Positions 6,002 to 23,618 of a stretch of 64,000 nt of DNA are shown here, in pieces. This stretch comes from Henricia sp. BOLD:AAB3569. Its lineage: Eukaryota > Echinodermata > Asteroidea > Spinulosida > Echinasteridae. The notes beneath the pieces are model-generated. The model did no database searches and had not been told where the DNA came from. It was given only the letters and a program-made list of their open reading frames with translations. Position numbers and translations under genes: made by a program. Each line of letters opens with the position of its first letter. The first letter of the stretch is position 1. The stretch is taken from NCBI GenBank assembly GCA_037783545.1, contig JBBELK010000450.1, positions 496,001 to 560,000 of the forward strand, read 5' to 3'.

Positions 6002-6424
6002 AGATAGTATACATGATTGGTAAACTGTTGCAAATAGTTTTATTCCCCTGTGTGATTGAAGATATGCATGATTAAAACCAACCTGAGCAAAAACCAGCTC
6101 CGTACTTCGTTTAACTTTTGAGAAAAAGGGTTTCGCCCTGAACCAAGACCTGTGCACGAAGTGTTTTTGGGTCGAAGTAGCATTTGGGCGATGTAGTGTT
6201 TGGACGAAGTGATTTGGGGCGAAATGGCACTCAAGCGATGTGGTCTGGGGGCGAAATGGTTTTGGGGCGAATTGAATTGTTTTACTCATTTCTCAAAGAC
6301 TATAGCACTTTAGACCAAACAATTTCAGGGGAAGTTTTCTACGGTCATCATGTTTATATTGTGTAAGTCAGGCGTAAATTTTGTGAACATTTCTGATTTT
6401 CGAGATACCAATCATATACTGCCT
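6002..6424. mobile_element. TTAA-target non-autonomous element, copy 1
   Basis: The termini are AG(A/G)(T/C)AGTATACATGATTGG and its inverse, flanked on both sides by TTAA (5998-6001 and 6425-6428). TTAA duplication is typical of piggyBac- and Kolobok-type transposons. The GC-richer centre has only about two degenerate copies of the GGGGCGAAATGGCAC motif that is expanded in copy 2 at 61839-62511. Confidence 0.85.
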
Positions 6425-7005
6425 TTAAATATGAAGAGTTTCATCACAAAATGCTGTATATTGACCCCTTTTCCAAACGTCATTTGGGAGTCAAATACAT
6501 GTAATGCTGCGTCATTGTGGAAGCAATTTGCGTGTGCATTGTGTGTGTCCATAGCACGCTTAACGCACTGTACTAAGGCTCCCATTGGTGAATTAAACCA
6601 CGTTACGCCCACCAGAGACACACACAATGCGCACGCACATCGCTTCCACAATGACTCAGCATTATTTGACTCCCAAAATGGCGTATTCGCACATGTTCGA
6701 AAGGGGTCAATATCCATTTTTGGCATTTGTAGAAAACCTCAATTTTATATTACAACTAGGCACTACACGTAATGGAAAATTCAAAAAAATTAAACGGGCT
6801 TTTTATTGTGTGTGGAATATAACAGTTTGTCAATATAAAATGTCTTGACACTATTATCTGTAATTTTTTAATATACCTTTTACTGCGTTTTGCGATGAAA
6901 CTCTTTATATACAATCAATGGGTATTCCAGCATGTATAATTGACCCAAGATTTTGCTCCATGAGTTGACGGGGGAAAAACTTGTTCAGAGTGTTGATAGC
7001 AATGG

Positions 7006-11506: not shown

Positions 11507-11796
11507 GTAAGACAACATCTTAAGATTCTGTCTCCAAAGTAAGACGTAATCCATGTTTTTGTGAGCACTTTGCATCACTCCTTATTTATCAGCCCACTAC
11601 AATCAAAGCCTGTTAATAAGGACTTTGTTGGACCTTAATGAGAACCTTGTATTATCAGGAATGAAAACGGTTAAGAACAAAGGAGTGGGACCTGAATTTT
11701 CCTTGCTATTAGCGCGCAGCATTCTGAACACGTCATTCCCGCTTTTAGCCTTATATTATTATCGATAGTGTACCCACGCCATTCTTGCATTTTGCT

Positions 11797-11830
11797 CTGA
11801 TGAGTTTAAGTCGAAAAGCTTTAGCATGTC
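11797..11830 (+). ncRNA. hammerhead-ribozyme-like core in left pLTR
   Basis: CTGATGA (11797-11803), a nine-base stem-II region, then GAAA, followed by TTTAGCAT and a GTC triplet at 11828-11830. This order matches the conserved core of hammerhead ribozymes, known from terminal repeats of Penelope-like elements. Stem II is weak and the 5' strand of stem III looks shortened, so catalytic activity is doubtful. Confidence 0.55.
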
Positions 11831-11985
11831 TTTGTCGTTACTTAATTCTATTTTCTGATTTTGCAGTACCAAACACTTACTCATTTATTTGAAACGACGG
11901 TAAACAGCACGTTCTATCCTCCATCTGCAGCAACTTGCCTGCTTCCCGCAAACAGCCGTCGCGTGTCTGCAAGAATGCTTGCAAT

Positions 11986-12198
11986 GCTGCAACACAGCCC
12001 AAATGCACATCTGCTATAGGACAACACTTGCTTGATCACCCCAAGTGCTCGGAACAATACAGCGAACAGCAGTTCTCTTTACTTGCCAGAGCACGCAATA
12101 TCATGCATCTGCACATGCTCGAAGCTACATACATTCACTTCACAAAACTCGTGTTATGCCGTCAGAAAGAATTTGTACACGCGCTACATGTAGTCTAA
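11986..12198 (+). pseudogene. C-terminal fragment of a Penelope-like polyprotein
   Basis: The open frame encodes CTSAIGQHLLDHPKC, then QFSLLARARNIMHLHMLEA, then LCRQKEFVHAL, followed by TAA. The pattern GxHLLxxPxC, FxxLxxAR, HLxxLEAxYI, LCRQKEFV is the C-terminal part of retroelement proteins I associate with Penelope-like elements. Frame 11935-12198 is open, but no start codon is implied. Without catalytic domains this is a dead fragment. A LINE origin is the main alternative. Confidence 0.65.
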
Positions 12199-12332
12199 CT
12201 GCGCATGCGCAGTAGCGTGCTCCCTGCTGTTGTTAGCTGACCAATTAGCGCGCAGCATTCTGAACATGTCATTCCCGCCTTTAGCCTTATATTATATCGA
12301 TAGCGTCACCCACGCCATTCTTGCGTTTTGCT

Positions 12333-12366
12333 CTGATGAGTGCAAGTCGAAAAGCTTTAGCATGTC
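12333..12366 (+). ncRNA. hammerhead-ribozyme-like core in right pLTR
   Basis: Second copy of the motif at 11797-11830: CTGATGA (12333-12339), a nine-base spacer, GAAA, then TTTAGCAT and GTC at 12364-12366. The stem-II region differs at two positions between copies while the core is unchanged. Confidence 0.55.
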
Positions 12367-12568
12367 TTTGTCATTACTTAATTCTATTTTCCTATTAGCA
12401 GAATGTTGTACAGTCAAACCTGCTATTAAGGCCAGCTTGATAAATGGGCTACCTGCTTATAGTGGCCACCCATCTTTGGTCCCACATTTATAGTGGCAAA
12501 ATTTTTACAGCCAGTTTTTTTCAACCTGTTATCTTTTCTCACAACTCTCCGTCACCTCTTCTCCTCAG

Positions 12569-12780
12569 ATGCCAAACGAATCAAGCTTCTCCGATATGAC
12601 GACCCAGACCTGGGCCCACGTAAACTTCCCAAATTCCAGGAACACACTCAAGGCAAGACCACGGTGCCCTCTGAAGCCACATTCACAATCTCCCTGGAGA
12701 CCAAACGGGTTGCTGTATCGGAAAACGGCAAAAGCATACATGTAGATGTAGGCTCGATATTGGTTTACATGGTAGAGTAG
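12569..12780 (+). CDS. LARS1: leucyl-tRNA synthetase, cytoplasmic: terminal coding exon and stop
   Basis: The exon starts after TCTCCTCAG (12568), completes the split Asp codon and ends with TAG at 12778-12780. It encodes AKRIKLLRYDDPDLGPR, an internal stretch, then VSENGKSIHVDVGSILVYMVE. The (K/R)YDDPxLGPR motif and the final VDxGxxxxYxV(E/H) ending match the C-terminus of animal LARS1, whose C-terminal extension is tied to complex assembly and tRNA binding. The four exons together give the last 181 residues with consistent phases. Confidence 0.95.
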
Positions 12781-21842: not shown

Positions 21843-23618
21843 TAAACCTTATCGACGTTCTCAATGCATTATGGGATTGGATGACAAAATTGCCCGGCCA
21901 AAAGAGATGCATTTTCTCCTTAGTTTAAAAATAAACCTTATCGACGTTCTCAATGCATTATGGGATTGGATGACAAAATTGCCCGGCCAAATGTGCATAA
22001 ACCTATGAGGCGGACACCAACTCGGCAACATTTTTACTCATTTTCACGAAAACCAAAAAGAGTTCAAGAATCAACCTCCCACCACTTTATCTTTGACACA
22101 TATCAAACATTCTGACAAACATGTCCCGAAACAGAAATGTCGCAAATGCGAGAAATCTTTGGGGATTCCCTTCATATCGGTAGAGTCCCACGCTCGCAGC
22201 TCGGTATGCGCTAGCCCCGCGAGCAGTGCTTCGGAAACCTCAGCCCTGTCTTCTAATATACACCAAATCTGTGGCAAACTCACGCAAATGAAATTTGGCC
22301 CACGGCTCTGATATTTGCTCAATAGGTGCACTCACCCCAGTTTATAAATATTCCGAAGAGTACGCATCGATCCGATGTCTAGTTTCGGTGAAATCGTGGG
22401 GACAGTTTGAGACCTTTCTTGTGATGAAATTCCCACTCTTTGACCAAAAATCAAATATGCGCATGCGCGAGGGCGGAGAGGTCAACATAATAGCGCCATC
22501 TCGCGACGGCGTCGTCACGTACCAGCTGCACAGCGGCTGTTTCAGGAGAGAGCACATCGACAGTAAATGAGGTACTGTAGTCCGTAGGTAGGTAAATGCC
22601 GACTCGCGTTTCGGTTTTTTTTTCATATACATTGAACACGGATTTGGGTGAATTTATATATTGGAATCAATAGGAAATTTTATTCCTATTGATTCCAATA
22701 TATAAATTCACCCAAATCCGTGTTCAATGTATATGAAAAAAAAAAACGAAACGTGAGTCGGCAAAATGATCAAACGTCTGGCTTGGCGGCATGGCATCGC
22801 CTGCAGCGCGCGCTGTACGTGTAGAACGTACCGCGCGATAGAGTCGATGTGCTCTCTCCTGAAACAGCCGCTGTGCAGCTGGTACGTGACGACGCCGTCG
22901 CGAGATGGCGCTATTATGTTGACCTCTCCGCCCTCGCCCATGCGCATATTTGATTTTTGGTCATAGAGTGGGAATTTCATCACAAGAAAGGTCTCAAACT
23001 GTCCCCACGATTTCACTGAAACTAGAAATCGGATCGATGCGTACTCTTTGGAATATTTATAAACTGGGGTGAGTGCACCTATTGAGCAAATATCAGAGCC
23101 GTGGGCCAAATTTCATTTGCGTGAGTTTGCCACAGATTTGGTGTATATTAGAAGACAGGGCTGAGGTTTCCGAAGCACTGCTCGCGGGGCTAGGTATGCG
23201 CTAGCGCTATGCAACACATGCACACGGCGCTGGACGGATCGATTTTTAAAAATTTATATTGGTGGGGGAGTCCGTGTACACGGACTCGCAGTGCAGCACA
23301 CTGCCGATACGGCGTGTGTTGCATGCATAGCGCATACCGAGCTGCGAGCGTGGTACTCGGACTCTACCGATACGAAGGGAATCCCCTATGATTTCTCGCA
23401 TTTTCAACATTTCTGTTTCGGGACATGTTTGTCAGAATGTTTGATATGTGTCAAAGATAAAGTGGTGGGAGGTTGATTCTTGAACTCTTTTTGGTTTTCG
23501 TGAAAATGAGTAAAAAAGTTGCCGAGTTGGTGTCCGCCTCATAGGTTTATGCACATTTGGCCGGGCAATTTTGTCATCCAATCCCATAATGCATTGAGAA
23601 CGTCGATAAGGTTTATTG
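21843..23618. repeat. 1.8-kb near-perfect palindrome
   Basis: The arms 21843-22680 and 22681-23618 are inverted copies of each other. They meet at about 22680 with almost no spacer, where ATTCCAATATATAAATTCAC is mirrored across TATTCCTATTG. Inner and outer ends both pair (AAACCTTATCGACGTTCTC / GAGAACGTCGATAAGGTTT). The left arm has a local duplication of ~80 bp (21831-21990). The right arm has an extra GC-rich foldback segment near 23215-23335. Each arm carries, in mirrored orientation, one 90-codon open frame starting MAHGSDICSIG. Confidence 0.9.

Follow-up and report, generated by a model that had tools for sequence, protein, structure and literature searches.

The minimal hammerhead ribozymes of Penelope-like elements (PLEs) are defined by a diminished stem III that is able to pair between copies. 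Minimal type I hammerheads of these elements were reportedly described by Cervera and de la Pena in 2014 and by Lunse, Weinberg and Breaker in 2017. According to a passage in PMC6155905, PLEs usually carry minimal hammerheads without helix III, and a section of the review PMC7761336 adds that these may self-cleave as dimers and calls their role unknown. The hammerheads on record in a section of PMC3088659 include forms with a stem II of two pairs, and once of one pair, as well as palindromic stems III, and loop pseudoknots are regarded there as critical for the speed of the ribozyme. Rearranged hammerheads are among the subjects of PMC10085705. In Poseidon of Anolis carolinensis (PAc), the hammerhead cuts only when its protein is present, and the 'tail', for which 30–40 bp is cited, is explained by two start sites of reverse transcription (PMC11167929).

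The motif described here was found in two repeats within the window, i.e., the whole 64-kb stretch of DNA that was analysed. It shares with the minimal PLE hammerheads the core, the order of the elements, the place in the pseudo-LTR, the diminished stem III and the tandem arrangement of the pseudo-LTRs, whereas its stem II is also down to one pair and its putative cleavage triplet is UUU. As in PAc, the motif is located near the junction of the pseudo-LTR and the ORF, and insertions end at two nearby sites that form a 'tail'. PAc differs by the presence of stems I and II, by demonstrated cleavage and by a cut 26 bp inside the ORF. In the RAGATH-1 model (RF03152), stem II likewise comprises one pair closing a loop of seven bases, and copy 1 aligned to it in the same register, but the model has a long stem III. 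In animal retrozymes, too, hammerheads lie in two direct repeats spaced by a few hundred bases; the PLE ORF end inside the window unit, however, marks this unit as a truncated PLE and not as a non-coding retrozyme. Overall, every odd feature of the motif has a precedent, and it probably belongs to a known kind of hammerhead. We interpret it, with a probability of about 0.58, as a strongly reduced (or decaying) hammerhead of PLE pseudo-LTRs, whose activity, if any, would depend on a dimer or on a protein.

Genomic setting of the element

The repeats at 11708–11855 and 12244–12391 start 536 bases apart and are identical in 140 of 149 aligned columns (94%). Copy 1 terminates in TTTTGCAGTACCAAACACTTACTCA and is followed by about 300 bases that translate as the 3' end of a Penelope-like ORF and then by copy 2, which terminates at TTCTATTTTCC (Table 1). 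The repeats are pseudo-LTRs of a 5'-truncated PLE. The CTATTAGC pair may represent a target-site duplication round the whole 686-bp insertion, an uncertain assignment because it consists partly of the pseudo-LTR's own letters.

The downstream exon encodes the C-terminal ubiquitin-like domain of LARS1 (Pfam ULD_3, E 1.8e-20; PDB 9w01 and 6kid, E 1.9e-8). Because this exon matches the LARS1 C-terminus, the element can be assigned to the intron in front of the last coding exon, in the same orientation as the gene; the exon upstream of the element was read by eye. With the pseudo-LTRs, the ORF end and the exon matches, the location of Penelope-like terminal repeats in a LARS1 intron, as given in the preliminary description, holds. 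A second copy of this intron stretch, with the same insertion and flanks 87–95% alike, is present on contig C97 (L002 / L043), representing either a duplication of the locus or a contig of a divergent haplotype.

Table 1. Positions of the element, the motif parts and the neighbouring exon in the window.
Feature	Position	Strand	Basis or remark
Pseudo-LTR copy 1, 5'-truncated	11708–11861	+	94% identity with copy 2; query for the genome-wide family search
AC-rich 'tail' TGCAGTACCAAACACTTACTCA behind copy 1	11862–11883	+	many family copies stop about here or ~27 bases earlier
Penelope-like ORF 3' end, 5'-truncated, C-terminal to GIY-YIG endonuclease motif	11901–12198 (stop 12196–12198)	+	translation
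Pseudo-LTR copy 2, without tail at its end	12244–12391	+	repeat comparison and family alignment
Candidate target-site duplication CTATTAGC	11706–11713 and 12392–12399	.	proposed by eye from the alignment
Hammerhead-like motif, copy 1	11793–11826	+	best of all registers, descriptor search
Copy 1, putative stem I	11793–11796 with 11823–11826	+
Copy 1, core	11797–11803	+
Copy 1, putative stem II pair	11804–11812	+
Copy 1, GAA	11813–11815	+
Copy 1, putative stem III palindrome AAGCTT	11816–11821	+	putative cleavage after 11822
Copy 1, CTTGC	11784–11788	+	possible pseudoknot partner for loop II 11806–11810 (weakened there)
Hammerhead-like motif, copy 2	12329–12362	+	descriptor search and family pairing count
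Copy 2, putative stem I	12329–12332 with 12359–12362	+
Copy 2, core	12333–12339	+
Copy 2, putative stem II pair	12340–12348	+
Copy 2, GAA	12349–12351	+
Copy 2, putative stem III palindrome AAGCTT	12352–12357	+	putative cleavage after 12358
Copy 2, CTTGC	12320–12324	+	may pair with 12342–12346
LARS1 (cytoplasmic leucyl-tRNA synthetase), last coding exon, downstream of the element, same strand	12568–12780	+	exon start inferred from AG

Identity of the element family

Pieces of longer family copies matched Pfam RVT_1 (E 3e-4) and GIY-YIG (E 0.0026), both under the curated Pfam cut-offs. The endonuclease piece of these copies gave nothing useful in NCBIfam or PDB, the ORF piece of the window searched alone had no Pfam match, and no full-length ORF of the pseudo-LTR family was present among the copies examined. 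By eye, we take the family protein to resemble PLE proteins. The anatomy of the family is that of PLEs: partial-tandem pseudo-LTRs, frequent 5' truncation and an optional tail (~27 bases here). Over 79 distinct pseudo-LTR rows, the 3' coverage dropped from 68 rows at column 147 to 48 at column 154 and again from 39 at column 173 to 26 at column 174; therefore, the family has two 3' ends about 27 bases apart. The hammerhead-like motif sits 33 and 60 bases 5' of these two insertion ends.

A start of the ORF at the ATG within CTGATGA was considered and rejected. The frame is open to the tail, yet shared variants at columns 140 and 144 alter amino acids (by hand), and two other families described below are without such an ORF (by eye, there is a stop after 17 codons in family 2 and CTGACGA in family 3). 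A full-length family copy bearing the ORF start was not found among the copies examined.

The first look at the genome yielded 1451 candidates for the pseudo-LTR and 796 for the ORF end, of which the best 40 each were scored, with partly overlapping loci. Direct tandem pairs of pseudo-LTRs, noticed in the window, its C97 relative and L006/L021, seem rare in the family. In comparison, an inverted pseudo-LTR adjoins the 5'-truncated end of the element in 10 of 50 loci (L004, L005, L007, L009, L013, L047, L048, L052, L055 and L056).

Core letters and their chance frequency

Both repeats contain CTGATGA-N9-GAAA (11797–11816 and 12333–12352) and then GTC (11828–11830 and 12364–12366), in the hammerhead order already recognised in the preliminary description, and the core CUGANGA ... 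GAA A ... UH is present in each of them. The earlier remark that the core is unchanged while the stem II region differs is correct insofar as the nine-base spacers, GTTTAAGTC in copy 1 and GTGCAAGTC in copy 2, differ at two bases, but it carries little weight: an identical core in two 94%-alike copies says little. In the window, CTGATGA-N4..20-GAAA was found three times versus 0.86 expected, the two repeat copies not being independent, and 6 of 100 shuffles contained at least three. Since about one chance occurrence is expected per window, the bare motif is unremarkable, and the case rests on its context.

Stem register and folding

When all registers were searched with the core fixed, the best one was identical in a consensus-like sequence and in both window copies. 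It consists of stem I UGCU/AGCA of 4 bp, a stem II of one G-C pair and a loopless stem III AAG/CUU, with cleavage after UUU. Because the palindrome AAGCUU has no loop, the 3-bp stem III would form only between two copies, so that in this register the motif has the diminished stem III, able to pair between copies, of the minimal PLE hammerheads. The shortening of stem III noted earlier takes the form of this loopless palindrome, but it is accompanied by a reduction of stem II to one pair.

The UUU|AGCA register scored 8 against a shuffled mean of 4.5–4.7. Mononucleotide shuffles gave P values of 0.03–0.04, rising to 0.08–0.10 when stem III had to keep a loop. With dinucleotide shuffles, the stems alone reached P 0.045 in the consensus-like sequence, 0.032 in copy 1 and 0.058 in copy 2, and adding the pseudoknot between loop II and the 5' flank changed these values to 0.013, 0.046 and 0.015, respectively; the longest Watson-Crick run between CTTGC and loop II is three in copy 1 and five in copy 2. 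Among the CTGANGA...GAAA sites in 358 kb, a score of 8 was attained by 26 of 44 sites of this family and by none of 24 untagged sites (best 7.5), with tags assigned by text pattern and one of the untagged sites (L058) being a broken copy of the pseudo-LTR family.

The GTC, proposed earlier as the cleavage site, did not withstand this comparison, as almost no stem can be built around it: no register besides UUU|AGCA scored above 5, and stem I was nearly absent from those with GTC. In the family, 62% of the cells were paired around GTC, many of them as G-U, versus 97% in the UUU register, a contrast that leans towards the latter because its structure was derived from the same family.

Minimum-energy folds were no better than those of shuffled sequences in all four stretches (z −0.57 to 1.00). 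In the favoured fold, the core is part of a different hairpin, and stems I and II alone amount to +1.1 kcal/mol. Given these ordinary folds and the other hairpin around the core, the motif would not be expected to adopt the hammerhead fold unaided as a monomer.

Searches with Rfam models

The Rfam hammerhead models had no match in 2.2 kb of the window, and the whole window had none for any Rfam family at the gathering threshold. Hammerhead_1 did not match any family stretch tried. The lack of a model match at relaxed threshold, named in the preliminary description as one of two observations that together would speak against a hammerhead, was borne out for the family: none of 19 family loci matched a hammerhead model in a 63-kb search with E up to 10, in which a family 2 locus alongside reached 43.7 bits. 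Only copy 1, searched alone, matched RAGATH-1-hammerhead (RF03152), with 15.0 bits (E 2.2, cut-off 56.3) in the UUU register with the one-pair stem II. Copy 2 and the consensus-like L010, each searched alone, had no RAGATH-1-hammerhead match, and a genome search with this model (E up to 10) gave none among the best 58 of 73,818 candidates. The model also matches below its cut-off in 8 of 14 control genomes. An assignment to the RAGATH-1 type, as suggested by copy 1, was rejected since it was not repeated in copy 2, the consensus-like copy or the genome search.

The sensitivity of the models can be judged from locus L099 of family 3, a hammerhead whose three stems comprise 5, 5 and 3 pairs as counted by eye and which one Hammerhead_1 search missed and another scored with 18.7 of the 34 bits of its cut-off. 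Because Hammerhead_1 nearly misses such an evident hammerhead, the silence of Rfam on the pseudo-LTR motif is weak evidence, and motifs of this kind may be under-reported in standard annotation.

Distribution and conservation in the genome

A 33-base motif pattern including the core was found, with up to three mismatches, at 401 places of the 740-Mb genome and at none for the reversed control; unlike the bare motif in the window, this recurrence stands out. The pattern CTGATGAG-N6..20-CGAAA-N3..12-GTC had 227 matches in the same genome versus 14 for its reversed form; among the matches listed, six belong to family 2, five are unrelated and the remainder belong to this pseudo-LTR family (by eye).

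For covariation, 62 of 65 located copies were aligned, partial matches having already been dropped. None of the 13 pairs changed on both sides in the 56 distinct rows, which come from one family with little variation and give low power. In each helix, 96–100% of the cells are paired, in a structure derived from the family itself, and most of the aligned copies preserve the core letters together with stem I and the palindrome of stem III. The second observation that would have spoken against a hammerhead, relatives devoid of complementary stems, was not made: short complementary stems are retained, but compensating changes are lacking. A hunt for diverged relatives over six stretches chosen by offset yielded the pseudo-LTR 3' end twice, its 5' part once and neither of these in three stretches, and hence added nothing to the covariation count.

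Variants common to at least 10% of copies occupy 13 of 175 columns, with 0 of 34 in the motif and 13 of 141 outside (P = 0.054). At a 7% threshold, 24 columns are variant, one of them inside the motif (P = 0.029), and at 5%, 34 are, with three inside (P = 0.060). Columns 82–139 are free of shared (at least 10%) variants (P = 0.004, for a range picked after seeing the data). The density of private changes, by contrast, is no lower in the motif than outside it (0.024 vs 0.019 per site), so that the copies appear to decay unprotected after insertion. With shared variants absent from the motif, the lineage that produced the copies may nevertheless have been constrained there, although the conservation test is borderline. 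Coding could contribute to this conservation, as the frame that begins with the core ATG runs without a stop as far as the tail; of the three shared variants that follow immediately downstream, two are non-synonymous in that frame (by hand).

These data bear on the idea of a dead relic, according to which the family, once equipped with a complete PLE hammerhead, had already been stripped of stem II and the greater part of stem III when it spread, leaving a core that is non-catalytic in all copies, while the surrounding block was retained because the element requires it otherwise, for instance to bind protein or to begin reverse transcription a little further downstream. The absence of covariation, a stem score near background and the extension of the variant-free block past the motif to column 139, toward the two insertion ends, all fit such a history. 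Moreover, for PAc the protein-binding RNA was assigned to the initial 172 nt of the ORF, and ribozyme mutants still insert (PMC11167929). However, the core, stem I and the stem III palindrome persist in most copies (with the structure taken from the family), and stem III remains self-complementary in a few copies that carry a TG insertion, AAGTGCTT, so we regard loss of catalysis before the spread as possible but rather unlikely.

The TG insertion in the putative stem III (AAGCTT to AAGTGCTT) was seen in L019, L081 and L091 and at G000:C24:2348932, C103:1446699 and C176:828097. If U-G pairs are allowed, this variant stays self-complementary, which may hint that a dimeric stem III is under constraint. 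In two other copies (L078:1983-2050:+ and L082:1152-1219:-), which look like related loci, GCATGCG directly before CTGATGA replaces the TGCT of stem I.

Full hammerheads in two other element families

Family 2 (L031–L041) gave 11 Hammerhead_1 matches of up to 43.7 bits, with the best 73 of 133,289 candidates scored. Its sequence reads ATTCTG CTGATGA GTGCC ACAC GGTAC GAAA CAGTCTGTC CAGGAAT, about 100 bases past the ORF stop in L041, and has a descriptor score of 13–15 (P below 0.001). In family 3 (L099 and L100), AATTCC CTGACGA GTGGA GGTA TCCAC GAAA CAGATTTGTC GGAAT lies about 280 bases past the ORF stop and scores 14.5. Stem II of the two families has different letters with the pairing kept. 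The family 3 protein is 55–57% identical to that of family 2 in the longest matches, and since its open frames reach 721 aa, family 3 may be recently active. From the resemblance of their sequences, we take both families to be PLEs; neither family 2 nor the family 3 piece had Pfam support for this, family 2 also had none in NCBIfam, and the upstream stretch of one family 2 copy contained no reverse transcriptase recognisable by eye.

In both families the motif is located 100–300 bases past the ORF stop, as in window copy 2 (~135 bases). In contrast to the window family, they score 13–15 rather than 8, and stems I and II comprise about five pairs each; stem III has three pairs as a hairpin, or 4–4.5 when counted without a loop.

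The position of these clear hammerheads is relevant to a chance origin, i.e., core letters met by accident in a repeat that later multiplied, one accident looking like hundreds. Such an event would agree with the single family that accounts for most of the genomic matches listed and with the 0.86 occurrences of the bare motif expected per 64 kb. It is nevertheless very unlikely, because the clear hammerheads of families 2 and 3 have their parts in the same order and are found on the same side of their ORF, and passages in PMC6155905 and PMC7761336 describe PLEs as known for hammerheads at that place.

Proposed structure and its consequences

The reading we prefer, a strongly reduced or decaying PLE hammerhead, keeps the earlier proposal of a decayed or minimal core at the site where PLEs are known to carry hammerheads. 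The RNA would fold as a type I hammerhead with stem I UGCU/AGCA, the core CUGAUGA, a stem II of one pair closing a loop of seven bases, GAA and the palindromic AAGCUU as stem III. Loop II could pair with the upstream CUUGC, stem III would form between two copies, and cleavage would follow UUU. Of this picture, the family, the position, the letters and the lack of covariation are observed, whereas the register, the dimer and any activity are inferred. If the RNA of an intact element cuts at all, cleavage would be weak and would take place in a dimer of tandem pseudo-LTRs or with the element's protein assisting. With full and reduced hammerheads in one genome, it can be asked which stems the element needs and whether a protein or a second copy substitutes for them.

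A stricter version, which we hold to be decidedly unlikely, makes the hammerhead an obligate dimer that cuts tandem PLE transcripts, its one-pair stem II held by the pseudoknot of loop II with the 5' flank and its stem III being the loopless palindrome. If true, this would be nearly the least RNA able to form a hammerhead, in a PLE with hundreds of copies.

For the host gene, the two window copies might be imagined to act as a dimer, cutting the intron twice and freeing a 536-nt retrozyme-like RNA that affects LARS1 expression. Both copies retain the core, stem I and the palindrome, in direct orientation on the gene's strand and 536 bases apart, and animal retrozymes with units of roughly 200–400 nt give circular RNAs, as a part of PMC7229834 reports. 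On the other hand, the pseudoknot of copy 1 is weakened, the second copy at the related C97 locus lacks one stem I letter, nothing found points to constraint at the LARS1 locus, and the general weaknesses of the motif all apply, which makes an action of this kind exceedingly improbable. The insertion in LARS1 is most likely an ordinary, decayed-looking passenger, and nothing found suggests that it has a role in this gene.

Two further repeats were observed. At L007 (2991–3109) and L013 (3013–3154), a hairpin-like repeat matches many unrelated microRNA and snoRNA models with up to 67.4 bits, under their cut-offs; it is probably a mobile element of palindromic structure that gives rise to false RNA calls. 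In the window itself, open frames on opposite strands at 6350–6772 and 22295–23109 encode nearly identical peptides and form inverted repeats, perhaps hairpin-type transposons.
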